Positions 7,483 through 30,300 of a stretch of 33,021 bases of DNA are shown in pieces. Origin of the DNA: Elusimicrobiota bacterium (GTDB taxonomy: Bacteria; Elusimicrobiota; Elusimicrobia; Elusimicrobiales; UBA9959); NCBI GenBank assembly GCA_016209085.1, contig JACQWV010000050.1, forward strand, positions 1 to 33,021, given 5' to 3'. The notes beneath the pieces are model-generated. The model worked only from the letters and a program-made list of their open reading frames with translations. It had not been told where the DNA came from and made no database searches. Made by a program: the position numbers and the translations under genes. Every line of letters begins with the position of its first letter. Within the stretch, counting starts at the first letter, position 1.

Positions 7483-7779
7483 ATGGGAATCTGGAAAAAT
7501 GCGTTTAAATTACCAGACTCGGCGCCTGTAACCGACGAGCAAAAAAAAATGATTGAAGTTTTTTCCCGGAAAATAAAAGAGCGTTCAATGGGACATTTGG
7601 CGTTTTTGTTTCTTGAAAGCACAAAACCCCTTCACAACATCGGCTCGCAGTCCCTTACCTTTTTAATGCCGTTCATCAGTCTTATTTTCAAGAAGGAGGA
7701 GGCTCAGAAATTCGCGGGGATTTTTGAAAATCCGAACGCAGTTTCATTTTTAATTGAACAGCTTGAAGGTAAAGGATAA
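7483..7779 (+). CDS. Small conserved-looking hypothetical protein upstream of the GlmL-like gene
   Basis: 98 aa ORF, separated from the next gene by only a few bases. Confidence 0.65.
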   Translation: MGIWKNAFKLPDSAPVTDEQKKMIEVFSRKIKERSMGHLAFLFLESTKPLHNIGSQSLTFLMPFISLIFKKEEAQKFAGIFENPNAVSFLIEQLEGKG

Positions 7780-7782
7780 ATT

Positions 7783-9585
7783 ATGAAAGAAAAAGACTTG
7801 CAGGTTATCATAGCGACTGATTGCGGAAGCACGACGACTAAAGCGATTTTGATTGAAAAAAAGGGAGACACCTACAGGCAGACTTTCAGGGGCGAAGCTC
7901 CCACGACCGTGGAAGCGCCTTTTGAAGACGTGACAAAAGGCGTTTTAAACGCCATTACCGAAGTTGAAGAATTATCCGGCAGAAAAATACTGGACGGCGA
8001 AAAAATCATAACGCCCAACAGCGGGAATACCGGAGCCGACATTTACGTGTCAACGAGTTCGGCAGGCGGAGGCCTTCAGATGATGGTAGCTGGAGCCGTC
8101 AAAACCATGACCGGCGAATCAGCCCAGAGATGCGCCCTGGGAGCTGGAGCCATAGTAATGGACGTGCTTGCCTCAAACGACGGCAGGGCCGACCATGAAA
8201 AAATAGAAAGAATAAGACAGCTCAGGCCCGACATGATTCTGCTTTCAGGCGGAACGGACGGCGGAACCGTCACGCACGTGGTTGAGTTGGGCCAGTTCAT
8301 AAAAGCGGCCGACCCGAAACCAAGACTCGGAGCTTCCTATAAACTTCCGGTGATTTACGCCGGCAATAAGGATGCGAGAGAAAAAATCACGGAAATTCTC
8401 GGCGAAGGAACCGCTTTGATGAAGACCGATAATCTCAGGCCTATTCTTGAAAGGGAAAACCTCATGCCTGCGCGGCACAAGATACACGACATATTTCTTG
8501 AGCACGTGATGCAGCAGGCGCCGGGCTATCCGAGACTCATGAACATGGTTCACGCTCCCATAATGCCGACCCCGATGGCGGTAGGGCTCATGGTGGAAAA
8601 ATTCGCCAAGGCGAAAAATTACAACGTGCTGGCTGTTGACATAGGAGGAGCCACAACCGACGTTTTCTCCGTATTTTCCGGGGTATTTAACAGGACTGTC
8701 AGCGCGAATCTGGGAATGAGTTACTCCATTTCCAACGTTATGGCCGAGGCAGGACTGCCCAACATAATGAGATGGCTGTCTTTTGACATGGACGAGCAGG
8801 ACCTCAGGAACAGGTTAAAGAATAAAATGATAAGACCCACCACTGTTCCGCAGACGGTGGAGGATTTGCAGATAGAACACGCGGTCGCCAGAGAAGCTTT
8901 GAGGCTGGCTTTTGACCAGCATAAAATGCTTGCAGTCGGACTCAAAGGCGTTCAGCAGGAGCGTTCAATTTCAGACGCTTTTGAACAGACCGCAACAGGC
9001 CAGAGCCTCATAAGAATGATGGACCTTAATTACATAATAGGAAGCGGCGGCATACTCGCTCATTCCCCGCGCAGGATACAGTCCGCAATACTGATGACGG
9101 ACGCGTACCAGCCCGAGGGCATAACCATGCTTGCGGTGGATTCCATATTCATGATGCCTCATTTAGGCGTTCTGGCGCAGATAAGCGAGAAAGCCAGTCT
9201 TGACGTTTTTTACCATGATTGTCTTGTTAAATTAGGGGCATGCATCGCTCCCAGGGGGCTGGCAAAAGAAGGTCAGAATATAATGGAATGGGAAATAACA
9301 GAGGAAAGCGGGTCCGCCTCTGGCGGAAAACAATCCGGGGTTCTTAAATTCGGAGAATTAATACACATTCCGTTTAAAGCCAAGGGAAAGATATCTGCAA
9401 AGCCGGTCAAGGGTTTTGACATGGGTCATGGGAACGGAATCAAAATTGAAGGAGAAATAGAGGGCGGCGTAGCCGGGATTATTCTGGACGGCAGGGGAAG
9501 GCCTTTTGAGCCGCCGAAGATGCATTCAAAAAGAATAGCCGATTTGAATAAATGGTCCAAATCAGTGGAAATGTACCCAGTATAA
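7783..9585 (+). CDS. Glutamate mutase accessory protein L (MutL/GlmL)-like ASKHA-fold protein
   Basis: 600 aa; ATDCGSTTTKAILIE phosphate-1 motif, LLSGGTDGG, VDIGGATTDVFS phosphate-2 motif, YIIGSGGIL. Confidence 0.88.
   Translation: MKEKDLQVIIATDCGSTTTKAILIEKKGDTYRQTFRGEAPTTVEAPFEDVTKGVLNAITEVEELSGRKILDGEKIITPNSGNTGADIYVSTSSAGGGLQMMVAGAVKTMTGESAQRCALGAGAIVMDVLASNDGRADHEKIERIRQLRPDMILLSGGTDGGTVTHVVELGQFIKAADPKPRLGASYKLPVIYAGNKDAREKITEILGEGTALMKTDNLRPILERENLMPARHKIHDIFLEHVMQQAPGYPRLMNMVHAPIMPTPMAVGLMVEKFAKAKNYNVLAVDIGGATTDVFSVFSGVFNRTVSANLGMSYSISNVMAEAGLPNIMRWLSFDMDEQDLRNRLKNKMIRPTTVPQTVEDLQIEHAVAREALRLAFDQHKMLAVGLKGVQQERSISDAFEQTATGQSLIRMMDLNYIIGSGGILAHSPRRIQSAILMTDAYQPEGITMLAVDSIFMMPHLGVLAQISEKASLDVFYHDCLVKLGACIAPRGLAKEGQNIMEWEITEESGSASGGKQSGVLKFGELIHIPFKAKGKISAKPVKGFDMGHGNGIKIEGEIEGGVAGIILDGRGRPFEPPKMHSKRIADLNKWSKSVEMYPV
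9313..9327. repeat. Short perfect hairpin inside the GlmL-like gene
   Basis: tccgcc tct ggcgga; encodes part of SGSASGGKQSG. Confidence 0.6.
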
Positions 9586-9590
9586 CAGCA

Positions 9591-9682
9591 GGTCAAGGTT
9601 AAGATTAAGGTTAAGTTAAAGATTAAGAATGGCATAAAATTAAAATTTGGTTTTTTTCTCAATCTTAACCTCAATCTTAATC
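9591..9682. repeat. Hexanucleotide-periodic inverted repeat
   Basis: ggtcaa ggttaa gattaa ggttaa gttaaa gattaa ... ctcaat cttaac ctcaat cttaat; right half is the approximate inverse of the left. Confidence 0.8.
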
Positions 9683-9701
9683 TGCGGGTGACGGAGGTTT
9701 T

Positions 9702-10826
9702 ATGGCACATGCATACACGCCGGGATTAAAAGCAATACCGTGCACTGTTTTGAGAAAAAAAAGAATGCTTCCGATTCCGGGCAAGGTTCTCGCGGAATCC
9801 GGCAAACAGATAGACGCTCTTGACGTCGTGGCTCAGACGGAACTGCCGGGCAAAGTTTATCCTGTAAACGTGGCGAACAGGCTCGGGATATCTCCTGATG
9901 AAATCCGCGGTTACATGGTCAAGAGAGAATTAGACAAGGTGAAAAAATTAGAAACAATAGCCGAAAACAAGCCTTTTATTTCATGGTTTAAAACAAAAAT
10001 AGAATCTCCGGTTGCGGGGACAGTGGAATCGGTTTCAGAGCTTACCGGACAGGTTCTGCTGAGAGAGCCGCCGAAAATTCTGCCTCTGAAAGCCTACATT
10101 AAAGGCAGAATCGCCGAGGTTCATCCCAATTTCGGCGTCACCATTGAAACGGAAGGAACCTTCATCCAGGGAATATTCGGAATAGGCGGCGAGACGAACG
10201 GGGAAATAGCGGCAGCTGTTGAGAGTCCCGACGAGGAGCTGGTGGCGGAAGATATAAAGGAGCTTCATAAGGGTAAGATCGTGATAGGCGGCAAACACGC
10301 AAGTCTCAACACCATAAAGCGCGCGATTGAAATCGGCGTTCACGCCATTGTCGTGGGCGGAATACACGACAGGGATTTAAGGCAGATTCTCGGCTACGAC
10401 ATAGGCGTGGCAGTCACCGGCACGGAACAGATAGGCCTGACCCTGGTGGTTACCGAGGGCTTCGGAATGATACCCATGGCTGAATACACTTTCAGGCTTC
10501 TTAAATCCAGGGAAGGCGAAAAAGCCTCTGTTTCAGGAGCCACGCAGATACGGGCGGGCGTGATGAGGCCTGAAATCATAGTTCCCGGATACCCGAAAAA
10601 CGTAACGCAGTGCAAAAAAGACGAGGGAAGAGGCTGGATTGAGCCGGGAGACCCGGTGAGAATAATACGGGAGCCTCATTTCGGAGTCATCGGAACAGTC
10701 GCCTCGCTTCCTCCGGAACTTACGAAAATCCCATCTGAAAGCCGTGTCAGAGTTCTTGAAGTCACCCTGCCGGGCGGGGAGAAGCTTGTGATTCCGCGCG
10801 CCAATATAGAGGTTTTGGAGAAGTGA
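9702..10826 (+). CDS. Conserved hypothetical protein with lipoyl-like and C-terminal KOW-like segments, partner of the GlmL-like gene
   Basis: 374 aa; IESPVAGTVESVSELTGQVLLREPP barrel-sandwich-like segment; GDPVRIIREPHFGVIGTVASLP KOW-like segment. Confidence 0.75.
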   Translation: MAHAYTPGLKAIPCTVLRKKRMLPIPGKVLAESGKQIDALDVVAQTELPGKVYPVNVANRLGISPDEIRGYMVKRELDKVKKLETIAENKPFISWFKTKIESPVAGTVESVSELTGQVLLREPPKILPLKAYIKGRIAEVHPNFGVTIETEGTFIQGIFGIGGETNGEIAAAVESPDEELVAEDIKELHKGKIVIGGKHASLNTIKRAIEIGVHAIVVGGIHDRDLRQILGYDIGVAVTGTEQIGLTLVVTEGFGMIPMAEYTFRLLKSREGEKASVSGATQIRAGVMRPEIIVPGYPKNVTQCKKDEGRGWIEPGDPVRIIREPHFGVIGTVASLPPELTKIPSESRVRVLEVTLPGGEKLVIPRANIEVLEK

Positions 10827-12991
10827 AAAAACAAAAAAAAAATACTCCCGCGCATGATCAAAAACAGGCTCCTGCCGCTCCCCGCTTCCCTCCCTGGCTT
10901 GTCTGGCCCGTAATATGCGTCTGGGGTTTTATCGTTTTTAAGAGCTATTATGCCAAGTATTTGCCGGATACCCGCTTCATTTTTACCCTTTTGTCGCCCG
11001 AGCAATACCTTTCCGGAGATATAAAAATCATCGCGAGCCGTTTGATTGACCTGTTTCTGGGGTGCCTCGTTGTTTTTTCAAATTTCAGCCTGGGCAGGAT
11101 TGTTTCAGGATTTTTGAAACTTAAATACAAAAACTTTCTTGAAGAAATCGTGTTTGCGACAGGCATCGGGATGGGAATCTTTGCATATCTGCTTTTCATC
11201 CTAGGAATTTTTAAAATTCTTTATCCCGCCCTGGTTTGGCCCATGACCGCCGGACTGGCTCTTTTCGGACTCTTCAGCCTTAAAAAATCCCCTCCACATG
11301 AAAGCCTGCCGGGCCGGCAAAACAATACGCAGATGGTTTTTAAAGGCATAGACGTTTTTGCCGGCCTCATTCTCGGGGCCGCCTGCGTCTTGAATCTGAT
11401 AGGCGCGCTGAGCCCTGAAATTTTTTACGATTCTCTCGTGTATCATCTGGGGGTTCCGAATTACTACAAACTGAACCATGCGGTAACGGAAATGAGATAC
11501 AATTTTTATTCCAACATGCCTCACCTTCACAGCATGATATATCTGCAGGGCCTTTTGCTGAAGGACGAGTTTACAGCCAAAGCCGCAAATTACCTGACAG
11601 GCCTGCTCATAATGTTTTCAGCCGTCTCAATCGGAATCAGGCATTTTAGCTTCAGGACGGGACTGTGGGCGGCGCTTGTTTTTTACACCCTGGCGCACTC
11701 AATGATGGGAGCGTGGTCCTGCGGCACGGAAATGCATCTGGCTTATTTCGGAATGCTGGCAATGTATTGCGTCTTGAATTTCAAAGAGGAAGAAAACAGA
11801 TGGATTGTTCCTGCCGCTTTTTTCAGCGGGCTTGCAATGAGCGTTAAATATACGGGCATTTTCATAGAAATTTCCGTGCTCGCCGCGTATGTTTTTAAAG
11901 AAAGAAAATTTTCCGCAAGGGCGCTCAGAAACATAATAATATTCGGATTTGTCTCGGCGCTCATGGTCGCGCCGTGGCTTGTAAAAAATTATGCGTATAC
12001 CTCAAATCCCGTTTATCCCTTTCTGGGCAAGATATTCGGACTGGGAGAGCATTCAAGTTTTGAGAGAATACAGGTATTTTTAAACGACGCAAAACAGATG
12101 AATCTTACCCTCAAAAGCTGGATTGAGACTCCGTGGATGATTACAATGGGCAAAATCGCCTATTCCGAATTTTTTACTCCGATTTTCATTTTTTTCCTCC
12201 CTATTGCGTTCCTTCTCGGCAGGGGAAACCTTCATATCAAAGTTATTTTTGCGTATTTTATCGGAATCTGGCTGACCTGGTCCGTTTCTTCCACGGTAAT
12301 AAGATTCATGATGCCGGCCTATGCGGCGGGAGGGCTGATAATTTCCTATTATCTTTTCTCCTGGGGACACAATTTTCTTAAAAAGATTCTTTTGTGGCTG
12401 GTAACGGCATCCTGTCTTTCAGGTTTATACGGCGCCGCTTCCATCTGGTATATCCAGCGGAAGTGGGAGCCGGTTCTCGGCCAGATTCCCAAGCACGAAT
12501 ATCTGTCAAAAACAAAAAGCTCTTATCCCTACAGCCATTATGCCGGAATAAAATTCATAAACGAGAATCTCCCTCCCGACGCAAAGGTAATGATAATCGG
12601 AGACGGCAGAACTTATTACATGGAAAGAAAATTCGTAGCAAGCACCGTGTTTGACCTGACTCCCATGGTGGAATATTCAAAAAAATCGGGTGACGCTGAA
12701 GGACTTTACCGGAAGTTAAAATCAGAAGGAATTACCCACATTCTGCTGAACGCGGGCGAAGCTCTGCGTCTTCAGGAACAGTACAACATATTTTATTTTG
12801 ACGAAAAATCTTTTGCGGTTTTCAACGAATTCTGGGACAGAAGGGTCAGCGAGGCATTCAGTTTTGACGAGACTCAAGCCGGCCATTTCATAAACCGCAT
12901 CGTGGTTTACCTGATAAGCCCTGAAGCGAAGCAGGGAAAACCCGCTTTTAACTACATAAAGGAATTTGTTTTAAAAACAAAAAAAATATGA
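10823..12991 (+). CDS. Polytopic glycosyltransferase-like membrane protein (GT39/PMT-like)
   Basis: 722 aa, many TM segments; [17 protein letters not shown] and [12 protein letters not shown] resemble GT-C family proteins; soluble C-terminus. Confidence 0.7.
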
Positions 12992-14601
12992 ATCAGAAAA
13001 CAGCGGTGATAATCGGGGCGGGGCCGGCCGGGCTCACATCTGCGTACGAATTGATAGACAGAACCGACATATCGCCCGTAGTCCTGGAAATGACGCCTGA
13101 TATGGGAGGGATTTCAAAAACGGTCAATTACAAAGGCAACAGGATTGACATAGGAGGGCACAGGTTTTTTTCCAAATCCGACAGGGTAATGAACTGGTGG
13201 CGGAATTTGTTTCCTGTTCAGGGTTTTCCCGCAAGAGACGACATTCTTTTAGGCAGGAAAAAACAATTCCCGGCAGAATGCCTTCATAGACCCGTACGTT
13301 CCAAAGAACGTTTAAAAATACCGGCGCCGGATCCTGAAAAACAGGACGTTCTGATGCTTCTTAGGGATAGGTTTTCCAGGATATATTTCAATAAGAAGTT
13401 TTTTGATTATCCCGTGTCTCTGAGCATGGATACCGTCTTTAAAATGGGATTTGCCCGCACGCTGGCCGTGGGTTTAAGTTACCTGAAATCGCGCGCGTTT
13501 CCGGTGAAAAACGAAAAATCCCTGGAAGATTTTTTTATAAACAGGTTCGGCAGAAAGCTTTATGAAACGTTTTTCAAAGACTATACGGAAAAGGTCTGGG
13601 GAATCCCGTGCAGCCGGATAAAACCGGAGTGGGGAGCGCAAAGAGTAAAGGGCCTGTCTGTTTCAAAAGCGGTTATGCACGCGGTAAAGAAAGCGTTTGA
13701 CCGGGGTCATTCCGTTTCCCAGAAAGAAGTTGAGACAAGTCTGATAGCGAGGTTCATGTACCCCAAACTGGGGCCGGGCCAGCTCTGGGAAGAAGCCGGC
13801 CGTGTGATAAAAGAGAACGGCGGGAAAATTCTTGTAGAGCATAAGGCGGAAGGCATTGAGATTTCAGGCAAAAGAGTAACCGCCGTAATCGCAAGAAACG
13901 CAAAGACACGGGAACTTGTGAAAATCAGCGGGGATTACTTTTTTTCCTCAATGCCGGTCAAGGATTTAATACAGGCTTTCGGTTCCGGGGCGCCGCCTGA
14001 CGTAAGGAAAACGGCCGAGGGATTGAATTACAGGGAGTTCATAACAACGGGTCTCCTTCTCAGAAAACTGAACATAAAAAACGAGACAAAGATAAAAACA
14101 ATCAACGGCATTATACCGGACAACTGGATTTACGTGCAGGAAAGCGGAGTTAAAATGGGCAGAATCCAGATATTCAACAACTGGAGCCCCTACATGGTAA
14201 AAGACCCGGGCACGGTCTGGCTGGGGCTTGAATATTTCTGCGCCACAGGCGACGAGATGTGGAGAATGACGGATAAAAAAATGATTGAATTTGCGGTTGA
14301 AGAAGCGTGCAGAATAGGCATGATGAAGAAAGAGGATTTCCTTGACGCAGCCGTCATAAGAATGGAAAAGACTTATCCGGTTTACAGCGGCTCGTACGAG
14401 AATTTCGGGATAATCAGGGATTTCACCGACGGATTTGAGAATCTTTTCCTGATCGGCAGGAACGGAATGCATAGGTATAACAATTCGGACCATTCAATGC
14501 TTGCGGCGATGACTGCGGTTGACAATATTCTGGCGGGAGAGACATCAAAAGAAAACATCTGGAACATAAACACGGAAGAGGAATATCATGAAGAGAAGTA
14601 A
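12988..14601 (+). CDS. FAD/NAD(P)-binding oxidoreductase, UDP-galactopyranose mutase-like
   Basis: 537 aa; [17 protein letters not shown] dinucleotide-binding motif, [43 protein letters not shown]. Confidence 0.85.
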
Positions 14602-14649
14602 TTCTAATTCTTGTAAATATGATTTAAAAAGTGTATAGTTTGTTTATCC

Positions 14650-15927
14650 ATGAAAAACGGAAAGATTGCCGCCGCAGTTCTTGCGGCTATTTTTTTTGCT
14701 TCTGTTTCCGGAGCGTCGGCAGAGAAGAAAAAAATTGAAATCCCCCCCCTTGAAGGACTCACGGCTCGGGACATGCCTTATGACATGGGAGCAGCGGCTT
14801 TGCTTGAGTGGAAAATAAGGGACTGTGATAACCAGGACATGACTTACCGGATTTTTGTCTCAAGTCTTGCAGGAACAGGACCTGCCCTTCGTAGCTTTAC
14901 CGAAGCAGGGTGGATCAAGGTTGACGAATTCAAAGGGAACGAAAGGCTCGCAAAGGACATTGAGCTTCCTTTCTGGGCCTGGAATGCCTCCAAAAACATT
15001 CACGCGGTAAAAGTCAGTCTTGATAACTTCTTTGGGAAAATTCAAGACGGTTCTGTTTATTATTTCAAGGTGATGACTCTCAGGGGAAAACAAATTTCAG
15101 AAAGTCCTGTTGTCCCCGGCGCTGTCAAAGGAAACTGGTTCAATTTATCCCGTTTTAATAATTTGTTTTATGTGATTTTAATCTCTATGGCTTTTTTCTG
15201 GGCGGTTACGCATGCTAAAAAAGGAAATCTCTTCATAAGGAGAATAACGGGGTTGGATGCGGTTGAAGAAGCGATAGGCCGCGCCACTGAAATGGGCAAA
15301 CCCGTGTATTATCTGACCGGCCGCCTTGGAATGGGCAGCATGTCAACGATAGCGGCTACGTTCATTCTCGGAGAAATTTCAAAAAGAATTGCGACTTACG
15401 ACACACAGCTGAAGGTTCCGCATACCGAGCCCGTCACCATGACGGTGTGCCAGGAGATAGTAAAGCAGGCTTACAGCGAGGCGGGAAGGCAGGATGCTTA
15501 CAGGGAAGACATTAATTTTTACGTTACAGACGACCAGTTCGCTTATACCGCAGCCGTTGACGGGATGATGACAAGAGAAAAGCCGGCCGCGTGTTTTTAC
15601 ATGGGCTATTATTACGCCGAATCCCTTCTGCTTACCGAGATAGGCTCGCACACGGGCGCGATTCAGATTGCAGGGACCGACGCTGAGCATCAGCTTCCGT
15701 TTTTTTTCATTACCTGCGATTATACTCTGATAGGCGAGGAATTATACGCGGCAGGCGCGTATCTTTCAAAAGATCCGGTGCTGGTCGGGACTCTAAGGGG
15801 CCAGGATATAGGCAAGGTTTTTGCCATGGCCGTGATACTGCTCGGTGCAATCGGGCTTACCCTGGCGCATGTTCGCGGCTGGGATGGCCTTACCAGAGTA
15901 ATAGGAAATCTTTTTAATTCATTTTAG
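14650..15927 (+). CDS. Module A gene 1: DUF6754-like membrane protein
   Basis: 425 aa; signal peptide, FN3-like N-domain, TM, GLDAVEEAIGRATEMGKPVYYLTG...TGAIQIAGTDAEHQLPFFFITCDYTLIGEELYAAGAYLS; C-terminal TM; paralogue of 18660-19877. Confidence 0.8.
   Translation: MKNGKIAAAVLAAIFFASVSGASAEKKKIEIPPLEGLTARDMPYDMGAAALLEWKIRDCDNQDMTYRIFVSSLAGTGPALRSFTEAGWIKVDEFKGNERLAKDIELPFWAWNASKNIHAVKVSLDNFFGKIQDGSVYYFKVMTLRGKQISESPVVPGAVKGNWFNLSRFNNLFYVILISMAFFWAVTHAKKGNLFIRRITGLDAVEEAIGRATEMGKPVYYLTGRLGMGSMSTIAATFILGEISKRIATYDTQLKVPHTEPVTMTVCQEIVKQAYSEAGRQDAYREDINFYVTDDQFAYTAAVDGMMTREKPAACFYMGYYYAESLLLTEIGSHTGAIQIAGTDAEHQLPFFFITCDYTLIGEELYAAGAYLSKDPVLVGTLRGQDIGKVFAMAVILLGAIGLTLAHVRGWDGLTRVIGNLFNSF
14880..14911. 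repeat. In-frame palindrome inside module A gene 1
   Basis: cctgcccttcg tagctttac cgaagcagg; the tandem paralogue lacks this segment. Confidence 0.8.
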
Positions 15928-15974
15928 TAAAGTGAATGTAAATCCTCACTGAACACCGTTATGTCAGGCAAAAA

Positions 15975-16035
15975 TGTAGGGGCTCAATTCATTGAGCCCG
16001 AAAAATATGCGGGTCGGATGAATCCGACCCCTACA
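15975..16035. repeat. GTAGGGG/CCCCTAC palindromic element, copy 1
   Basis: tgtagggg ... cccctaca ends; inner hairpins gggctcaattcattgagccc and gggtcggatgaatccgaccc. Confidence 0.9.
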
Positions 16036-16062
16036 CCAACGGCGTTGACTGAATACTTACAA

Positions 16063-16142
16063 GTGAATAGTGAGTGAGTGATTAAGTGAGTAAGCGAGTA
16101 ATCACTCAATCACTTAATTACTTAATCGCTTAATCACTATTG
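16063..16142. repeat. Octanucleotide inverted array, 5 + 5 units of 8 bp
   Basis: gtgaatag tgagtgag tgattaag tgagtaag cgagtaat / cactcaat cacttaat tacttaat cgcttaat cactattg. Confidence 0.9.
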
Positions 16143-16144
16143 TT

Positions 16145-16816
16145 ATGATATTTAAGAAAAAATTGCCGCTTATTGTGTGTTTCATAGTCGGGATTCTGAC
16201 TCTTTTGCAGTATTATGTTCCCAACAAGGTGTCCATAGGATATCTGGAAACAATGACCCAGTGGGACATTATAATAAGCGCGTTTGCGTTTTTGTTGGGA
16301 CTTGCAAGTTTGTTCGCAATGCACTATGACAAAATTCGCAGGAAGACACAGGGCTGGGGTTACAGCCTTTTTATGTTTGGCGGAGTCATTTTGGGATTGA
16401 CATGCGGAATTATAAGCAAAGCCAATCAGACCAACCAGGAAGGTTTTATCACGGCATTCGGCTGGATATATAATTATGTGCTGAATCCTCTTCAGGGGAC
16501 AATGTTCGCATTGCTTGCGTTTTACGTGGTTTCTGCTTCTTTCAGGGCGTTCAGGGTTAAGTCGGGCCAGGCATTTATTTTGTTTCTTGCGGCTGTCATA
16601 ATTCTCTTCGGCAGGGTTCCACTTGGACAACTTATCTGGAGTAAATTTATGAGTTGGCTGCCGTTCGGAATATCCGAAGCAATTGAATGGATTATGAATT
16701 TCCCCTCCACTGCCGCAAGAAGAGGCATTATGATAGGCATTGCCTTAGGCGCGGTTGCAATGTCTCTGAAGATAATTTTCGGAATAGAAAAACAGTATTT
16801 AGGCGGAAAAGAGTAA
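16145..16816 (+). CDS. Module A gene 2: polytopic membrane protein of unknown function
   Basis: 223 aa, about six TM segments; paralogue of 20007-20678 (shared FILF.AA..I..G.VPLG, RRGIMIGIA.GA...SLKIIFGIE.QY). Confidence 0.8.
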   Translation: MIFKKKLPLIVCFIVGILTLLQYYVPNKVSIGYLETMTQWDIIISAFAFLLGLASLFAMHYDKIRRKTQGWGYSLFMFGGVILGLTCGIISKANQTNQEGFITAFGWIYNYVLNPLQGTMFALLAFYVVSASFRAFRVKSGQAFILFLAAVIILFGRVPLGQLIWSKFMSWLPFGISEAIEWIMNFPSTAARRGIMIGIALGAVAMSLKIIFGIEKQYLGGKE

Positions 16817-16827
16817 ATCAGGAAGCG

Positions 16828-16926
16828 GTGAATAGTGATTAAGTAATTAAGTGATTGAGTATGAGCGAAAGGCTGCACAAAAAATCGGACTAAATCGCTA
16901 AATCTCTTACTAACTTAATCACTAAT
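16828..16926. repeat. Octanucleotide inverted array, 5 units + ~19-bp spacer + 5 inverted units
   Basis: gtgaatag tgattaag taattaag tgattgag tatgagcg / spacer / ggactaaa tcgctaaa tctcttac taacttaa tcactaat. Confidence 0.8.
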
Positions 16927-16928
16927 TT

Positions 16929-17762
16929 ATGAAAAACTTTTTTGACAAATTGCTGAAATTAGACAGGAGAATATTATTTCTGCTTGTTGTTTTTGTGATA
17001 GTATTTCCAATTTTCAAGCCCCTGAAACTTCCGGGGATAAAGATAACGGACGCTGTGAAAGGCGTTTATAACACGATTGAAAGCCTCCCGGAAAACTCTG
17101 TGATTCTTGTCTCATTTGATTTTGACCCTGCTTCAAAGCCTGAGCTCTACCCCATGGCGGTGGCGGTTCTGCGCCACGCTTTTAAGAAAAATTTGAAGGT
17201 CATAGGAATGACCCTCTGGGCAACCGGACCGGGAATTGCAGATGAGATTATAACAATGACCGCCAGGGAATACAAGAAGGAATACGGGAAAGATTATCTG
17301 TATTTCGGCTATCAGGTGGGCGGATATGCGGTCATAACCGGGATGGGAACCGACATATACAAGATTTTCTCAAAGGATGCCAAAAAAGGCAGTCCCCTTG
17401 AGACTTTTCCCGTAATGCAGGGAATCAAGTCTTTGAAAAATTTTGCTTATGTAATTGATTTTGGGGCAGGGGACCCTGGAATAGATACATGGATTGCTTA
17501 CGGGGCTGACAAGTTTGGTTTCAAACTCGGAGCCGGCTGCACTGCCGTAAACGAGGCGCCGACAAGGCCGTATCTTCAGACAAAACAATTAACCGGCTTG
17601 ATTCCAGCCATGAAAGGGGCGTCTGAGTACGAGATACTGATAAAGGCTCCGGATAAGGCAAGCGCCGGAATGGATGCCATAGGGCTTGGGCATTTTCTGA
17701 TATTGTTTCTTGTTATTTTGGCCAATGTGGTTTTGATTGTTCAAAAATATTTATTGACATAA
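16929..17762 (+). CDS. Module A gene 3: membrane-anchored protein of unknown function (TM at both ends)
   Basis: 277 aa; SLPENSVILVSFDFDPASKPELYPMAVAVLRHAFKKNLKVIGM; paralogue of 20737-21471. Confidence 0.8.
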   Translation: MKNFFDKLLKLDRRILFLLVVFVIVFPIFKPLKLPGIKITDAVKGVYNTIESLPENSVILVSFDFDPASKPELYPMAVAVLRHAFKKNLKVIGMTLWATGPGIADEIITMTAREYKKEYGKDYLYFGYQVGGYAVITGMGTDIYKIFSKDAKKGSPLETFPVMQGIKSLKNFAYVIDFGAGDPGIDTWIAYGADKFGFKLGAGCTAVNEAPTRPYLQTKQLTGLIPAMKGASEYEILIKAPDKASAGMDAIGLGHFLILFLVILANVVLIVQKYLLT

Positions 17763-17774
17763 TTTAACGTTAAA

Positions 17775-17839
17775 TGTAGGGGTTCAATTTATTGAACCCG
17801 TAAACTCTGGTTTCGGGCTTGATAAATCAAGCCCCTACA
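17775..17839. repeat. GTAGGGG/CCCCTAC palindromic element, copy 2
   Basis: tgtagggg ... cccctaca ends; inner hairpins gggttcaatttattgaaccc and gggcttgataaatcaagccc. Confidence 0.9.
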
Positions 17840-17854
17840 ATCGGACTAATATCT

Positions 17855-18658
17855 ATGGACTTTACCGCTATTTTAGGAGCATGGATTGCCGTAGGGCTTA
17901 CTCTGTTTATATTGAGTTTTCTTTATAGAGATAATCCTTTGTTTAAAATCGCTGAAAATTTATATATAGGAATAGCCATTGGCTATATTTTTTCAATTAC
18001 GATATATAATGTCTGGATTCCCAAAATTTATCAGCCCGTTTCCAATAGGGTTTTTACGAGTCTTTCAAACTGGGTTCCCTGGGTTTCTAAATTCGTCACA
18101 CCAGCAGGCGACGCCGGCAGTTTAACTCCGCTTTTTCCGGCCATAATCGGCATAAGTCTGCTGACAAGAATATTTCCTAAAATTTCATGGATTTCAAGAT
18201 ATGGTTTTGCATTTATTGTGGGCTATGGAGCGGGTCTTGCGATTCCTGCAACGGTTGCGACCATGTTCATAGCTCAGATTGAAGGCACCATACAGCCTGT
18301 TTTTAAATTAGCCTCCGGAGGAGCGATTGATTTGTCAGGACCCGCTTTATGGACGTCTTTTTCAGCGATTTTGCTTTGTTTAGGAGTGATTGTAACGCTT
18401 TTTTATTTTTTCTTCTCGCTGGAACACGGCAAAATCTCAAAGAAGGTTACCAAAATCGGGATATATTTTTTGATGGTTTATTTCGGCGCTGCTTTCGGCA
18501 CGACAGTCATGGGAAGGTTTGCCCTTTTATACGGCAGATTTTTTGACCTTTACACTTACAGAACATCAGGTTATTACCATGCAACTCCAATACTTATCTT
18601 GCTTGTGTTGATATTTTTCTTTGTGTATTTTGGGAAATCCCGCAAAACAAGTCCTTAA
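17855..18658 (+). CDS. Module A gene 4: polytopic membrane protein of unknown function
   Basis: MDFTAILGAWIAVGLTLFILSFLYRDNPLFKIAENLYIG; start moved from TTG 17819 (inside the repeat) to ATG 17855; paralogue of 21475-22299. Confidence 0.8.
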   Translation: MDFTAILGAWIAVGLTLFILSFLYRDNPLFKIAENLYIGIAIGYIFSITIYNVWIPKIYQPVSNRVFTSLSNWVPWVSKFVTPAGDAGSLTPLFPAIIGISLLTRIFPKISWISRYGFAFIVGYGAGLAIPATVATMFIAQIEGTIQPVFKLASGGAIDLSGPALWTSFSAILLCLGVIVTLFYFFFSLEHGKISKKVTKIGIYFLMVYFGAAFGTTVMGRFALLYGRFFDLYTYRTSGYYHATPILILLVLIFFFVYFGKSRKTSP

Positions 18659-18659
18659 A

Positions 18660-19877
18660 ATGGCTTTTCAAATTCTAATTATTATTTTCTTCAGCATGAA
18701 TCTAAATGCCGCCGCAGAAATTCTCTTCCTTGACGAATTTTCCGCGGCAGACATGCCTTATGACGCGGGTGAGGAAGCTCTTCTTAAATGGAAGACGAGT
18801 CCGCTGGATTCCGCCCAGGCAACTTATCAGGTTTTTGCTTCAACCATGCAAACAGGAGGATGGATAAAAGTTGACGAATTTTCTGCGGATAAAAAATTCG
18901 CATCCGACATAAAACTCCCTTTCTGGGCGTGGAAAGCAAGAAAGGATTTACATGCCGTTGCAATACCTCTTGAAACGCATTTCGGAAAGTTGGAAAAAAA
19001 TAAAGAATATTTTTTCAAAATTATAAGTATAAAAGGCAGACAAAAATTTGAAAGCGAAATCGTCTCAACGCAGGTAAAAAGAAACTGGTTTAATTTTGCA
19101 CGTCTGAATAATCTCGTTTTTGTCCTCGTAATATTCGGCATTTTCATCTGGACCGTTTCTCACGCGAAAAGAAAAGGCCTTTTCATCAGAAGAATCGCCG
19201 GGCTTGACGCCATAGACGAGGCAATCGGCAGGGCGACCGAGATGGGCAGGCCTATTTATTACATTACGGGAATAGGATCAATGTCTTCAATTTCAACAAT
19301 CGCCTCCACCTTTATTCTCGGAGAAGTGGCGGGAAAGGTCGCCCAGTACGACAGTTACGTGAAAGTCCCGCATTACAACCCGATTGTTATGACCGTATGC
19401 AAGGAAGTGGTAAGGCAGGCCTACCTTCAGGCCGGCAGGCCGGATTCTTACAGGGAAGACATGAATTTTTTCGTAAGTTCAGACCAGTTCTCCTACGCTG
19501 CCAGCGTTGACGGAATGATAACGAGGGAAAAACCCGCCGCGTGTTTTTTAATCGGGCACTTTATGGCAGAATCCCTCCTGCTTGCCGAGGTCGGAGCCAC
19601 AGTCGGCGCCATACAAATTGCAGGCACTGATTCAGAGCATCAACTTCCTTTTTTCTTTACAACCTGCGACTATACGCTGATAGGCGAGGAGCTTTACGCT
19701 GCCGGAGCGTATCTTTCAAAAGAGCCCATGCTTTTAAGCACGTTGAGGCTTCAGGATTACGGAAAATTTTTTGTAATTGTGGCGGTTGTAATCGGAATCG
19801 CGCTTATGACGCTGTCTGTTCAATACAAGTGGGACCTGACGGATAAAATACTGGAAAATATTTTTAAAACATATTAA
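18660..19877 (+). CDS. Module B gene 1: DUF6754-like membrane protein
   Basis: Paralogue of 14650-15927 throughout; ATG at 18660 directly after the upstream stop. Confidence 0.8.
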   Translation: MAFQILIIIFFSMNLNAAAEILFLDEFSAADMPYDAGEEALLKWKTSPLDSAQATYQVFASTMQTGGWIKVDEFSADKKFASDIKLPFWAWKARKDLHAVAIPLETHFGKLEKNKEYFFKIISIKGRQKFESEIVSTQVKRNWFNFARLNNLVFVLVIFGIFIWTVSHAKRKGLFIRRIAGLDAIDEAIGRATEMGRPIYYITGIGSMSSISTIASTFILGEVAGKVAQYDSYVKVPHYNPIVMTVCKEVVRQAYLQAGRPDSYREDMNFFVSSDQFSYAASVDGMITREKPAACFLIGHFMAESLLLAEVGATVGAIQIAGTDSEHQLPFFFTTCDYTLIGEELYAAGAYLSKEPMLLSTLRLQDYGKFFVIVAVVIGIALMTLSVQYKWDLTDKILENIFKTY

Positions 19878-20000
19878 CCCCGTTAGAGATACATGGGTAG
19901 AGTTTAAATTCAAGATGCTGAAAACCAATACCTATAGAAAGTTTAAACTGAAAAACAGGGTAGTCGTCGGTCACGCAAGCGTGACCTATCTCTAACGGGG
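19878..20000 (-). mobile_element. Short inverted-repeat (MITE-like) element, copy 1
   Basis: ccccgttagagata ... tatctctaacgggg ends; internal ggtcacgcaagcgtgacc hairpin; TAA flanks both sides; divergent from copies 2 and 3. Confidence 0.8.
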
Positions 20001-20006
20001 TAAACT

Positions 20007-20678
20007 ATGATGCTGATAAAAAGATATATTCCGCTTGCGATAGTGTTCGTGTTCGGGATAATGACCCTTGCCACGTATTACATTCCCCCGAAACTGGCCC
20101 AGGACTATTATCTTGAGACAATGAACAAGTGGATAAACATCGTGGCGGCTTTTGCGTTTCTGCTGGCTCTTTTAAGTCTTTTCTATTCGCATTACAACAA
20201 GATAAAGAGAAAAGTTGACGGCTGGGGTTACAGCATTTTTGTTTATATAGGATTCCTTGTCGTCGTTGTTTGCGCAATCAAGAGCGAAGGGCAATTGATG
20301 ACAGGACCCGCTCTTACAAGCCTTGGGTGGATATTCAGGTTTCTCTATAATACTCTTTCAGCCAGCATGTTCGCGGTCCTTGCTTATTACATAGTCTCCA
20401 CTGCTTTCAGGTCTTTCAGAATAAAAACTTTGCAGGCTTTCGTTCTGTTTATGGCGGCCCTGTTTTTTATCATAGGAAAAGTCCCGCTGGGAAACGTCTT
20501 ATGGAACAAATTGTTTTTCTGGACGAATGTTTCCATCTCGCAGGTTACTGACTGGATTATAAATGTTCCGTCCGTGGCTGCTAAAAGAGGAATAATGATA
20601 GGCATAGCAGTCGGGGCCATAGTGACCTCGCTTAAAATAATATTCGGCATAGAAAGACAGTATATGGGGAAAGATTAA
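20007..20678 (+). CDS. Module B gene 2: polytopic membrane protein of unknown function
   Basis: 223 aa, paralogue of 16145-16816. Confidence 0.8.
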   Translation: MMLIKRYIPLAIVFVFGIMTLATYYIPPKLAQDYYLETMNKWINIVAAFAFLLALLSLFYSHYNKIKRKVDGWGYSIFVYIGFLVVVVCAIKSEGQLMTGPALTSLGWIFRFLYNTLSASMFAVLAYYIVSTAFRSFRIKTLQAFVLFMAALFFIIGKVPLGNVLWNKLFFWTNVSISQVTDWIINVPSVAAKRGIMIGIAVGAIVTSLKIIFGIERQYMGKD

Positions 20679-20685
20679 AGTAGTT

Positions 20686-20702
20686 GCACGCTCTTGGCGT
20701 GC
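20686..20702. repeat. Short hairpin after module B gene 2
   Basis: gcacgc tcttg gcgtgc, perfect 6-bp stem; related core at 30259-30275. Confidence 0.6.
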
Positions 20703-20736
20703 CTATTTAGGCGAGAAGGCGATTGGGTAAGAAAAT

Positions 20737-21471
20737 ATGCGGAAAGAGATGCTGGAGAAGTTTTTAAAGATTGACAGAAGGATAATATTTCTTCTGCTTA
20801 CGCTTGTTTTATTCATTCCGATAGTAAAACCTCTCAATCTTCCGATAGGAGCGGTCAGCGTTGACACAAAAAAGCAGGCAACCGCTATTGTAAGGCATTG
20901 TTTCAAGAAAGATTTAAGAGTCGGCGTCATAACTTTCATAGCGGGAGCCACGGGCTTGATTGAAGAGATTTTTGAAAAAGTTCCCCAAGAATACAGAAAG
21001 GAATACGGGAAGGATTACGTGATATTCCCGTATCAGGCCGACTATTCCGCCGTGCTTACGCAGATGGGATTTGACCTTTACCAGATTTATGACAAAGATA
21101 AATTCGGAACGCATCCTAAAAACCTCCCTGTAATGCAGGGAATTAAAAGTTATAAAGACATGGGCATGGGAATATGCATTACCGGCACCGCTCTTCTTGA
21201 CGGATGGGTCGCTTTTGCCGGAGATAAATTCAAATTTCCTCTGGGCGGCGGAGTTACGGCAGTAAGCCAGCCGGGGTACGGCCCCTATCTGCAGACGGGA
21301 CAGCTTGTGGGTCTTCTGGGCGGGATGAAAGGCGGGGCCGAATACGAATCTCTTCTCGGCATTCCCGGCAAGGGCACTTCCGGAATTGACGCCCTGAACC
21401 TGGGGCATTTTATGGTAGTCATTCTTATTTTGATTTCCAACATTATCATTATCGTAACAAGATACTTTTAA
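20737..21471 (+). CDS. Module B gene 3: membrane-anchored protein of unknown function, shortened paralogue
   Basis: 244 aa, paralogue of 16929-17762; lacks about 30 residues near the N-terminus. Confidence 0.8.
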   Translation: MRKEMLEKFLKIDRRIIFLLLTLVLFIPIVKPLNLPIGAVSVDTKKQATAIVRHCFKKDLRVGVITFIAGATGLIEEIFEKVPQEYRKEYGKDYVIFPYQADYSAVLTQMGFDLYQIYDKDKFGTHPKNLPVMQGIKSYKDMGMGICITGTALLDGWVAFAGDKFKFPLGGGVTAVSQPGYGPYLQTGQLVGLLGGMKGGAEYESLLGIPGKGTSGIDALNLGHFMVVILILISNIIIIVTRYF

Positions 21472-21474
21472 ATT

Positions 21475-22299
21475 ATGTCTGAAACATGGTTAATTATCGG
21501 CGGATGGGTTGCGGCAGGACTTACCATTTTTATTTTCAGTTTTCTTTACAAAGACAATCCGTTTTTCAAAATAGCCGAACACCTTTATCTGGGAGCCGGA
21601 ATGGGCTGGTGGTTCCAGGTGATGTTTTACAATATATGGAAGCCGAAAGTATGGGAGCCCGTAAAAATACTGGTTAACGGACTGCAGATAATACAATCCT
21701 ATCATATATGGAAGCCGGAATTCTGGAAAGCCGTCTGGACAGCGGGAGATTGGACAATATTTATTCCGACCCTGTTAGGGCTGTCGCTTATAACCCAGTT
21801 TTTCCAGAAAATTTCATGGGTTTCAAGATACGGATTTACTTTCATAATGGGATACGGGGCTGGACTTGTAATTCCGGTTTCTGTTTCCACTGATTTTATG
21901 ACCCAGATACTCGGGACCATAAAGCCCCTGTTCAAAGTCGGGACTGAGATGTCATGGGCTTCGTTTTTTTACACTTTCAACACTTTCCTGATAGCTTTCG
22001 GCCTTGTGTGCGTTTTGATTTATTTCTTTTTTTCAGCGGAGCAGAAGGGATTAGTCAAGAAGGCTTCCAACATAGGCATATATTTCCTCATGCTCTATTT
22101 CGGAGCGGCTTTCGGCAATACAGTTATGGGCAGATTTTCTCTTTTATACGGCAGGTTTGACGATTTGTACAAATATTCTTCCGTAAAGTATTTTTACGCC
22201 GCCCAGATTATAGCAGCCGCGCTCGCTGTTTATTTTATCCTCAATCATTTCATCTCTGCGAAAAAATCCCGCGCCGCCCAGGACAACAGCGGTTCATAA
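21475..22299 (+). CDS. Module B gene 4: polytopic membrane protein of unknown function
   Basis: 274 aa, paralogue of 17855-18658 (shared FSFLYKDNPFFKIAEHLYLG, ISWVSRYGFTFIMGYGAGL, YFGAAFGNTVMGRFSLLYGRF). Confidence 0.8.
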   Translation: MSETWLIIGGWVAAGLTIFIFSFLYKDNPFFKIAEHLYLGAGMGWWFQVMFYNIWKPKVWEPVKILVNGLQIIQSYHIWKPEFWKAVWTAGDWTIFIPTLLGLSLITQFFQKISWVSRYGFTFIMGYGAGLVIPVSVSTDFMTQILGTIKPLFKVGTEMSWASFFYTFNTFLIAFGLVCVLIYFFFSAEQKGLVKKASNIGIYFLMLYFGAAFGNTVMGRFSLLYGRFDDLYKYSSVKYFYAAQIIAAALAVYFILNHFISAKKSRAAQDNSGS

Positions 22300-25223: not shown

Positions 25224-25667
25224 CTATTGTTTCTGAGGAGCGGAACCGGGTTTTTTTCTTAAAGAAATGTCGTGCAGAAACTCTTTTTCCCTTATAAATT
25301 TTTCTATAAGAGCGTTAATGGCGTTTGTAAGCTCCTTCAGGTCTATCGGTTTGGTGAGGAACAAATCCGCGTGGGCGATGAGATTCGCCCTTATTTTCGC
25401 GTCGTTGGTCATGTTGGCAGTTAGAATTACGACAGGTATTTTTCTTGTGGCAGGATCGTCTTTAATCATTTGGCAAAGTTTCAGTCCGTCCATGTCAGGC
25501 AGGCCTATGTCTATGATTATCAAATCAGGTTTGCTTGATTCTTTCAGCCATGTAAGGGCGGTATTGGCGCACGCGGCCGGCTCCACCAGATAACCTTTGG
25601 CTTCAAGAGCGACTCTCAGCATTTTGACTATGTTTTCGTCGTCTTCAACTATCAGAATTTTAGCCAT
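25224..25667 (-). CDS. Stand-alone response regulator receiver protein 1
   Basis: MAKILIVEDDENIVKML..PDLIIIDIGLPDMDGLKLC..VVILTANM..FLTKPIDLKEL. Confidence 0.92.
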   Translation of the reverse strand: MAKILIVEDDENIVKMLRVALEAKGYLVEPAACANTALTWLKESSKPDLIIIDIGLPDMDGLKLCQMIKDDPATRKIPVVILTANMTNDAKIRANLIAHADLFLTKPIDLKELTNAINALIEKFIREKEFLHDISLRKKPGSAPQKQ

Positions 25668-25673
25668 ATCTTA

Positions 25674-26111
25674 TCACCTGTTATCGCTCAAAAATCTTCT
25701 TTTGAGGGAAATGTCGCTCAAAAAAGTTTTTTGTTTCAAGTATTCGTCTATCAGGGTTTTGGCGGCTCCGGTCAGCTCCTTGAGTTCTATGGGTTTGTTT
25801 AAAAACAAATCCGCATGCGCCGTTGTATTGGCTTTTATTTTGGCTTCATTCGTCATGTTGGCGGTAAGTATGATGACGGGTATCTTTCTTGTGGCCGGGT
25901 CGTCTTTAATTGTTTTGCAAAGAGTGATTCCGTCGGTATCCGGAAGCCCGATGTCCAGAATTATCAAATCAGGCTTGACCGGCTCTTTGAGCCATTGGAG
26001 GGCGGTTCTGCCGCATGATGCACACTGGATAATGTATCCTTCCTGTTCAAAGGCTTGTTGAAGCATTTCAAGAAGCGGAATATCGTCTTCGGTAATCAGA
26101 ATCTTCGGCAT
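25674..26111 (-). CDS. Stand-alone response regulator receiver protein 2
   Basis: MPKILITEDDIPLLEML..PDLIILDIGLPDTDGITLC; close paralogue of the two flanking regulators. Confidence 0.92.
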   Translation of the reverse strand: MPKILITEDDIPLLEMLQQAFEQEGYIIQCASCGRTALQWLKEPVKPDLIILDIGLPDTDGITLCKTIKDDPATRKIPVIILTANMTNEAKIKANTTAHADLFLNKPIELKELTGAAKTLIDEYLKQKTFLSDISLKRRFLSDNR

Positions 26112-26153
26112 AAATTAAAAACTTACGTTCTGCAGTAATCCCGCGGAGCTTCA

Positions 26154-26278
26154 CCCCGTTAGAGACAGGTCGTGCTTGCACGACCGTGCTTTGTTTAGAG
26201 TCTTTTGTTTGAACTTTTATAATTTCAACATTTTCAGCATCTTTAGTCAGCGCTTTCACCTGTGTGTCTCTAATGGGG
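26154..26278 (+). mobile_element. Short inverted-repeat (MITE-like) element, copy 2
   Basis: 125 bp; ccccgttagagaca ... tgtctctaatgggg ends; ggtcgtgcttgcacgacc hairpin; 4-bp direct flanks ttca (26150-26153) and ttca (26279-26282). Confidence 0.88.
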
Positions 26279-26279
26279 T

Positions 26280-26714
26280 TCATTTTTGTTCAAAGAATCT
26301 CTTTTTCAAATATAAATCCTGCATGTAGGATTTTTCCCTTAAAGCCTGGTCCATCATGTTTTTAACGGCTGACGACAATTCAGCCAGGTCTATGGGTTTG
26401 TTAAGGAATAAATCAGCCTTTGCAGTAAGTCTTGCCTTTATTTTTGACTCGTTCGTAAGGCTGGCTGTAAGAATGATAACCGGGATTTTTTTCAAAGCAG
26501 GGTCGTCTTTTATCATTCTGCAGAGAGTGACCCCGTCAATGTCGGGCAGGCCTATGTCGCTGATTATCAAATCCGGCTTGGAAGCCTCCCTGAGCCAGTT
26601 CAGGGCTGTTTTTGCCATTGAGGCTGTCTGGACAAGATACCCCTCATGTTCCAAAGCCATCTGGAGCATTTCCAGAACAGACAGATCGTCTTCAACCAAC
26701 AGAATTTTAGGCAT
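26280..26714 (-). CDS. Stand-alone response regulator receiver protein 3
   Basis: MPKILLVEDDLSVLEML..PDLIISDIGLPDIDGVTLC; close paralogue of the preceding two. Confidence 0.92.
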   Translation of the reverse strand: MPKILLVEDDLSVLEMLQMALEHEGYLVQTASMAKTALNWLREASKPDLIISDIGLPDIDGVTLCRMIKDDPALKKIPVIILTASLTNESKIKARLTAKADLFLNKPIDLAELSSAVKNMMDQALREKSYMQDLYLKKRFFEQK

Positions 26715-27779: not shown

Positions 27780-29411
27780 CTACATCGGGATGTTTCCGGC
27801 GCGCTCGCTGGTTCCGGGTTTGCGTTTGTCCGCAAGGATTCTGAACGCGTTTATCAGCCTTTGTCTTGCCTCGGACGGCTCTATCACTTCGTCTATTGAG
27901 CCGGTGGACGATGTCTGGTACGGCGAGGCGAATTTGTCCGAATACTCCCTGGCAAGGCTGGCTTTCAGAGCTTCTTTTTCTTCGTCTTTTGACTCATTTA
28001 TCTGTTTTGAATAAAGAATTTCTATGGCTCCCCTGGGGCCCATGACCGCTATCTCGGCGCTCGGCAGGGCGAAATTAATGTCGCCTCTCAGGAATTTTGA
28101 ACTCATCGCGATGTAAGCCCCGCCGTAAGCTTTTCTCAGGACAAGCGTGACTTTCGGGACGTCTGCTTCGGAATAAGCGTATAAAAGCTTTGCCCCGTGC
28201 CTTATTATTCCCCCGTGCTCCTGGGCCACGCCGGGCCAGTAGCCGGGAACGTCCACAAGCGTGAGTATGGGTATGTTGAAATTGTTGAGGAACCTTACGA
28301 ATCTTGAGGCCTTGTCGGATGCGTTTATGTCAAGAGCCCCTGCCATGTGAGCGGGGTTATTGGCCACCACGCCCACGACCCGTCCGCCCAGACGGATGAA
28401 GCCGATCACTATGTTTTTTGCAAAATTATGGTGGATTTCAAGGAATTTATGGTCGTCGGCCAGCCACCAGATGATGTGGTTGATTCTGTAGGATTTTCTC
28501 GGGTCCACTTCGCAGAGCTTTTCCATTAAAGGAACCTTTCTGTCTTCCGGGTCCTTGGTTTCAATAACCGGAGGGTTTTCAAATCTGCTCTGCGGCAGGA
28601 AGCTCAGAAGCTCTTTCAACTGCCTGAAACAGTCGGGCTCGCTCTGCGCCACCAGATGGCAGACCCCGCTTTTTGAAGCGTGAACCATGCTTCCGCCCAG
28701 GGTTTCAAAATCCACTTCCTCTCCGGTAGCCGCTTTTACCACTTCCGGGCCGGTGACGAACATGTTGCTGATTCCCTGAACCATGAATACGAAATCAGTC
28801 AGAGCCGGCGAATACACCGCCCCGCCTGCGCAGGGGCCGAGGATTACGGAAATCTGCGGTATTACGCCGGAGGATTTGGTGTTCCTGTAGAAAATCTCGG
28901 CGTACCCGTCCAGACTGTCCACGCCTTCCTGTATTCTGGCTCCTCCGGAATCAAGTATTCCTATTACAGGGATTTTTGAGTGAGCCGCAAGGTCCATTAT
29001 TGAGGCTATTTTTTTTGCGTGAGCAAGCCCCAGGGAGCCGCCTAACTGGGCGAAATCCTGCGAGAAAACCGCAACGGGCCTTCCGTTTACATTTCCGAAG
29101 CCGGTTATGACGCCGTCGCCTTTTATGTGTTTGTCCTGTATCCCGAAATCAGCGCACCTTGATTCAACAAGAAGCCCCACTTCCTGAAAAGCGCCTTTGT
29201 CAATAAGATAGTCTATTCTTTCCCGCGCTGTCAGTTTTCCCTTTGCCTTCTGCGCCTCTATCTTTTCAGGCGGTCCGCCTGCCATGGCCTGCTCGTGGAT
29301 TTCCCTGAATTTTTTGAGGTTTTCAGGAACCTGTCTTACTTTTTTGGGATGGAGTTTTTTCGTGGATTCTACTCTCGCCTGTCCTATCGGATCTTCGGTT
29401 AAATCCGCCAT
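27780..29411 (-). CDS. Acyl-CoA carboxylase carboxyltransferase (beta) subunit
   Basis: 543 aa; KLTARERIDYLIDKGAFQEVG, LGPCAGGAVYSPALTDFVFMV, TLVDVPGYWPGVAQEHGGIIRHGAKLLYAYSEADVPKVTLVLRKAYGGAYIAM. Confidence 0.94.
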   Translation of the reverse strand: MADLTEDPIGQARVESTKKLHPKKVRQVPENLKKFREIHEQAMAGGPPEKIEAQKAKGKLTARERIDYLIDKGAFQEVGLLVESRCADFGIQDKHIKGDGVITGFGNVNGRPVAVFSQDFAQLGGSLGLAHAKKIASIMDLAAHSKIPVIGILDSGGARIQEGVDSLDGYAEIFYRNTKSSGVIPQISVILGPCAGGAVYSPALTDFVFMVQGISNMFVTGPEVVKAATGEEVDFETLGGSMVHASKSGVCHLVAQSEPDCFRQLKELLSFLPQSRFENPPVIETKDPEDRKVPLMEKLCEVDPRKSYRINHIIWWLADDHKFLEIHHNFAKNIVIGFIRLGGRVVGVVANNPAHMAGALDINASDKASRFVRFLNNFNIPILTLVDVPGYWPGVAQEHGGIIRHGAKLLYAYSEADVPKVTLVLRKAYGGAYIAMSSKFLRGDINFALPSAEIAVMGPRGAIEILYSKQINESKDEEKEALKASLAREYSDKFASPYQTSSTGSIDEVIEPSEARQRLINAFRILADKRKPGTSERAGNIPM

Positions 29412-30190: not shown

Positions 30191-30300
30191 ATCGCTGCCG
30201 TTATTTTTTTGTCGTCTTGTTATTGGTCACTGCTATTTGCCGTTGCAGTTACTCATTTGCACGCCAAGGGCGTACGACTACTGGCCACTGGTTACTGCTG

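Follow-up and report, generated by a model that had tools for sequence, protein, structure and literature searches.

Why does a gene for a GlmL-like ATPase stand at the head of a row of membrane protein genes? This question is raised by a contig from an Elusimicrobiota genome of 2.35 Mb that is 98% complete. The window, i.e. the whole stretch of DNA that was analysed, comprises 33,021 nucleotides (contig G000:C131), and 13 plus-strand genes span its positions 7483-22299. A first-pass annotation, made from the letters alone, had read this string as an envelope-associated system with the GlmL-like protein, here termed MutL, as ATPase or cofactor-loading component. Here, we show that MutL, a 98-aa (amino acid) protein and a 374-aa protein are encoded in a cassette of constant order together with DUF6754, TM4, anch and TM8. 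These seven genes are the core of the cassette; they are inherited together, and MutL is separated from genuine GlmL. The three soluble, cytosolic proteins are set apart from the four membrane proteins, and we propose, with an even chance of being right, that they would act as a unit which assembles, activates or energises a four-subunit inner-membrane complex in an ATP-dependent manner.

The genes are all co-oriented, with mostly short gaps or 4-base overlaps between neighbours. The co-oriented string seen in the first pass is thus real and every protein named there is present. In the following list, a and b denote the two copies of the membrane module.

7483..7779, plus strand: small soluble 98-aa protein, constant upstream partner of MutL
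7783..9585, plus strand: MutL, 600 aa, GlmL-like ASKHA ATPase (PF13941) with a C-terminal extension of ~130 aa
9702..10826, plus strand: 374-aa protein, barrel-sandwich hybrid N-terminal part, conserved alpha/beta middle part, C-terminal KOW
10823..12991, plus strand: polytopic membrane protein, first called GT39-like; lineage-specific neighbour outside the core
12988..14601, plus strand: PRK07208-type FAD protein (UGM-like), NF005546 with 823.6 bits; lineage-specific neighbour outside the core
14650..15927, plus strand: DUF6754 of module a, PF20539 with 368.5 bits
16145..16816, plus strand: TM4 membrane protein of module a, a hidden Markov model (HMM) family whose order is kept across phyla
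16929..17762, plus strand: anch of module a, two transmembrane helices flanking a ~220-aa domain, motif D-[YF]-x-P-x-S present
17819..18658, plus strand: TM8 polytopic membrane protein of module a, position kept across phyla
18651..19877, plus strand: DUF6754 of module b, PF20539 with 376.4 bits, orthologous in the tree to the copy that the family usually has; the start is at 18651 or a few codons further, and the longest open reading frame (ORF) begins at 18621
20007..20678, plus strand: TM4 membrane protein of module b, 63-68% identical to single-copy orthologues
20737..21471, plus strand: anch of module b, lacking ~34 residues that include D-[YF]-x-P-x-S
21475..22299, plus strand: TM8 polytopic membrane protein of module b, 61-70% identical to single-copy orthologues

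MutL is separated from GlmL

MutL matches PF13941 with 412.6 bits (cut-off 27) over profile positions 1-449 of 450 and carries the three ASKHA motifs, phosphate-1 DCGSTTTK, phosphate-2 DIGGATTD and adenosine GSGG, which are conserved throughout its clade. The early assignment to the MutL/GlmL family was therefore correct. GlmL (NF040745, PF13941) is the closest named protein and has the Pfam family and the ASKHA motifs in common with MutL. However, the window protein is only 28-30% identical to genuine GlmL and reaches 229.2 bits against NF040745, under the cut-off of 475. Genuine GlmL proteins measure 461-467 aa and lack the C-terminal extension. Unlike GlmL, the MutL clade has two invariant cysteines and no others: Cys14, which lies within the phosphate-1 loop (TDCGSTTTK), and Cys480. 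In the tree, genuine GlmL lies across a long branch from the MutL clade with 100/100 support; branches are long, and placement within the GlmL side is unsure. Gene context separates the two as well. In the controls from Peptoclostridium, Prevotella and Rhizobium, genuine GlmL is encoded between glmS and glmE and adjoins methylaspartate ammonia-lyase, whereas the window gene has neither glmS nor glmE beside it and its genome has no glmE.

OR-4, a GlmL-related ornithine degradation protein, also shares the ASKHA family. The score of MutL against NF040744 (202.1 bits) is well under the cut-off of 600, and no ornithine degradation genes were seen in the window. With PF01869, the BcrAD/HgdC iron-sulphur activase family, whose members hold their cluster by two conserved cysteines per subunit, it scores 16.7 bits against a cut-off of 31.5. 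MutL is thus not a canonical GlmL and forms a separate subfamily. Some genomes encode a third, longer MutL type (700-945 aa) beside the core MutL (L140:8056-10857, L143:7733-9835, L147:6826-9663).

The first-pass annotation had pointed out that no mutase subunit is visible, and indeed the window holds no glmS, glmE or other mutase subunit. Our sample of relatives consists of this genome and 60 others (61 in total), 37 from the window's family and 24 from a sister family. Glutamate mutase E (PF06368) was found in none of the 61, 35 of which carry MutL; the control, Haloferax volcanii, was detected, though below the cut-off. The search for glutamate mutase subunits suggested in the first pass thus came back empty. 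The standard GlmL label is probably wrong for MutL. In many genomes that lack a glutamate mutase, this gene is probably annotated as "glutamate mutase L" or GlmL, a name that points to the wrong pathway.

The cassette is kept across phyla and inherited as a set

A contig scan with the 374-aa family yielded 517 relatives, and the analysis went on with the 80 best ones. ORFs at the loci are mechanical calls, and the HMMs of the small families were built from hits in the same cassette, so that distant stand-alone members could escape. The data are mostly draft metagenome assemblies and the absence of a gene from a single genome is weak evidence.

In all 20 loci of the window's family the 98-aa, MutL and 374-aa genes lie side by side, in most cases with one DUF6754-TM4-anch-TM8 module a few kilobases behind them. 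The module is inverted in one genome (G012), and in others it lies further off or on another contig. The 98-aa gene adjoins MutL in the Elusimicrobiota loci that extend that far, and the HMM finds it beside MutL in many other phyla. An apparent fusion of the two in G012 came from ORF extension and is false, since a stop lies between the genes; it was the cause of a spurious profile match between the 98-aa protein and MutL.

The full cassette was found in Planctomycetota, Brocadiales, Nitrospirota, Eisenbacteria, Coatesbacteria, Latescibacterota, SDB, SY70 and unassigned genomes. It is rearranged in Bdellovibrionota, and a Methylomirabilota contig terminates inside the DUF6754 gene. As an independent sample, 40 further Planctomycetota loci were examined for linkage to the 374-aa gene: MutL adjoins it in 34 of 40, the 98-aa gene is present in 32 and DUF6754 lies downstream in 30, with the order kept. 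Tandem DUF6754 modules like those of the window occur in three Planctomycetota loci (L205, L221, L222), where they follow the 374-aa gene directly. The synteny search proposed in the first pass thus recovered a conserved linkage of the GlmL-like ATPase, the 374-aa protein and the DUF6754 module outside any glutamate mutase operon. The opposite picture, in which another part of the genome holds a glutamate mutase operon and the linkage is not conserved, was not what we found.

Presence and absence follow the same pattern. Among 199 Elusimicrobiota genomes, MutL (over the cut-off), the 374-aa gene and DUF6754 all occur in the same 18, and 180 have none of them. The whole set is present together in an order-mate of the window's genome (G157). 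Within the window's family MutL occurs in 35 and DUF6754 in 33 of the 37 genomes, the gaps falling in incomplete genomes, and both are missing from 24/24 sampled genomes of the sister family. Genomes of other phyla that were picked by their 374-aa gene contain MutL in 17 of 18 and DUF6754 in 20 of 21 cases. Copy numbers differ within the set: a genome has between 1 and 7 membrane modules, counted as DUF6754 copies, and mostly one core MutL, consistent with a service unit that the modules share. The extra four-gene modules stand alone among unrelated genes and have no recurrent neighbours, as expected of a self-contained complex.

The soluble partners and the membrane module

The 98-aa protein has no Pfam or NCBIfam match. 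The 374-aa protein of the window is an orphan when searched as a single sequence. At the level of the family (26 members), the "lipoyl/KOW-like" segments noted in the first pass are real: RnfC_N matches 21 members, Biotin_lipoyl 15, NQRA_N 10 and KOW 7. The best RnfC_N match has an E-value of 7.1e-6, and the window's own member matches weakly (E 0.091). A first AlphaFold run with close homologues only gave a pLDDT of 74; with this model of moderate confidence, the fold search returned KOW domains of NusG/SPT5 only. The barrel-sandwich N-terminal domain is shared with RnfC and NqrA, which belong to sodium-pumping respiratory complexes as peripheral subunits. In contrast to these, the 374-aa family has a C-terminal KOW instead of FMN/SLBB or iron-sulphur parts: Pfam matches to iron-sulphur, SLBB or FMN domains are absent and no cysteine is invariant in the family. 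Rnf/Nqr membrane subunits were likewise not recognised in the window's cluster.

Both DUF6754 copies of the window are full members of PF20539 (cut-off 27), a family of unknown function, and the two modules claimed in the first pass are hence real. The protein begins with a signal peptide or transmembrane helix, followed by an FN3/Ig-like domain, a transmembrane helix, a conserved alpha/beta domain of ~200 aa and another transmembrane helix. A fold search with the predicted model of copy b matched FN3/Ig folds only. Judged by simple hydropathy, the alpha/beta domain would lie in the cytosol, since basic residues follow the second helix. The anch domain is probably exposed outside. Alignment with hhalign among DUF6754, anch, TM4, TM8 and the 374-aa protein gave no homology, sequence searches of the PDB with MutL, the 374-aa protein, DUF6754 and anch gave nothing convincing, and the PADLOC defence models had 0 matches among ten core proteins. 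In the literature, which was covered in part, we found no paper naming DUF6754 or a GlmL accessory protein. The partners and the constant gene order of DUF6754 are described here; such fixed partners make its function testable in a cultured bacterium.

The module had been called duplicated. Two copies are present; a recent duplication is contradicted by their identity of 47-55%, which indicates an old divergence. Copy b, with 57-70% identity, is orthologous to the single copy of the family; copy a is more distant (42-58%) and falls outside this group in the DUF6754 tree. The anch motif D-[YF]-x-P-x-S occurs in 43 of 44 relatives and is among the residues lost from anch of module b. The gap between DUF6754 and TM4 of module a contains two 20-base palindromes ~12 bases apart (15980-16030), and a repetitive stretch behind them (GTGAGTAA, ATCACTTAAT) reaches the start of TM4.

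A soluble unit that may serve a membrane complex

We suggest that DUF6754, TM4, anch and TM8 assemble into a four-subunit complex of the inner membrane that would carry two domains of DUF6754, one FN3-like and extracytoplasmic, the other alpha/beta and cytosolic. Joined by the 98-aa protein and by the 374-aa protein as barrel-sandwich/KOW adaptor, MutL would most likely dock onto this complex, and ATP binding and hydrolysis by MutL would assemble, activate or energise it. GlmL itself is thought to serve a client enzyme, and MutL may do the same here for a different client. A cofactor-loading role, the other option of the first-pass annotation, found no support. The combination of a single soluble unit with several membrane modules, and the strictness of their co-inheritance, suggest that the soluble proteins work for the membrane complex. 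The RnfC/NqrA-like barrel-sandwich domain, known from peripheral subunits of membrane complexes, speaks for this, and so does the strong constraint across phyla (identities of 61-67% for MutL within its clade and 50-57% for the 374-aa protein) with intact ASKHA motifs. For MutL, this conservation suggests a basic cell function in anammox bacteria and in uncultured groups such as WOR-3. It is possible, though somewhat less than probable, that the set represents a widespread and hitherto undescribed class of ATP-powered inner-membrane machines of diderm bacteria. Such a machine would be driven by a dedicated ASKHA ATPase of GlmL descent that acts through a barrel-sandwich/KOW adaptor, and the wrong label "glutamate mutase L" would have concealed it so far.

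Several points weigh against a soluble unit serving a membrane complex. In WOR-3 and related genomes MutL follows glycine cleavage genes, away from the 374-aa gene and DUF6754. One Elusimicrobiota genome (G153) has DUF6754 and a 98-aa-like gene without MutL or the 374-aa gene. The alpha/beta domains contain many invariant polar residues that are equally compatible with enzymes. Finally, the interaction and docking, the formation of a complex, the role of ATP and the process served are inferred.

The main rival takes MutL and the 374-aa protein as soluble metabolic enzymes, ATP-dependent and hydantoinase- or oxoprolinase-like, perhaps in amino-acid or one-carbon metabolism, with the module as transporter or membrane enzyme for a substrate or product. 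We hold this to be rather unlikely. The invariant polar residues would suit it, as would a weak Hydantoinase_A match of MutL and weak matches of the 374-aa protein to phosphate-binding TIM barrels. The genomic context would also agree with it, as gcvT-gcvH-gcvPA-gcvPB precede the 98-aa and MutL genes in WOR-3, Fermentibacteria and SY70, and by gene cluster also in Cloacimonadota, Eisenbacteria and Edwardsbacteria. They lie directly upstream in loci L139, L141, L146, L126 and L101, with a lipoate ligase-like gene in between in L101. However, the P-protein is found in 159 of the 199 Elusimicrobiota genomes, 141 of which lack MutL. An obligate link to glycine cleavage was therefore rejected; the association is local synteny and possibly a hint. 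Furthermore, no catalytic family was recognised for the 374-aa protein, anch or DUF6754.

MutL might also be a cytosolic scaffold of the actin or PilM/FtsA kind, which would polymerise on the membrane complex or clamp onto it, with nucleotide binding and not turnover as the switch; we consider this improbable. The ASKHA fold, as judged from family and motifs, and the tight linkage with the membrane module would fit such a role. However, MutL falls into the MutL/hydantoinase branch and has no match to the PilM, FtsA or MreB Pfam families, and no PilN/O/P resemblance was found for the adaptor.

A further alternative is that MutL still assists a B12-dependent mutase, IcmF or an unseen one, and that its site beside the module is incidental. 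The family name (PF13941) would agree with this. The first-pass phrase "without a B12 mutase" is correct only where glutamate mutase is concerned, since the genome encodes the N-terminal part of IcmF (B12-binding and MeaB-type GTPase, 497 bits), truncated by a contig end (G000:C103, L245:3-1076, minus strand). There are 20 B12-binding matches in this genome, and a B12-dependent acyl-CoA mutase probably exists. A PF01642 search was empty; it misses the cut IcmF, which runs off its contig, so the result is no proof against every B12 mutase, and the aminomutases OraE/KamE were not searched for. Still, we consider an accessory role very unlikely. IcmF has its own GTPase domain, which acts as a chaperone. 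The presence of MutL tracks DUF6754 and the 374-aa gene, and the absence of glutamate mutase E, the scores under the GlmL and OR-4 cut-offs and the glmS-glmE setting of genuine GlmL likewise argue against it. The IcmF fragment adjoins a 3-hydroxyacyl-CoA dehydrogenase-like gene, and a lone B12-binding ORF on another contig (C69) proved to be a radical SAM protein, truncated where that contig ends.

That a chance neighbourhood was frozen by descent without functional coupling is hardly credible: gene order can last within families, but here it is held across several phyla, with joint presence and joint absence within one phylum and the whole set together in the order-mate.

Neighbouring genes and other features of the window

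The two genes between the 374-aa gene and module a are lineage-specific neighbours outside the core. The label "GT39-like" was not confirmed for the polytopic protein, which has no Pfam match and a weak LIC_10190 match under the cut-off; its gene occupies the same place of the cluster in many genomes of the family. The "UGM-like" protein is indeed an FAD protein, of the PRK07208 type; the match to true UDP-galactopyranose mutase amounts to 33 bits only. Its gene lies near the cluster in few relatives and is rare even within the family. Neither gene was found at cassette loci outside Elusimicrobiota, and their inclusion in the system by the first-pass annotation was not supported.

Further downstream, three consecutive single-domain response regulators are encoded on the minus strand (25224-26714). 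Positions 27780-33021 code for a carboxyltransferase, a phosphopantetheinyl transferase and a polyketide synthase-type KR/DH protein that runs off the window, a probable polyketide or fatty-acid synthase cluster. In WOR-3, members of gene clusters next to the 374-aa gene had suggested a link of the cassette to carboxyltransferases, which proved to be group-specific synteny.

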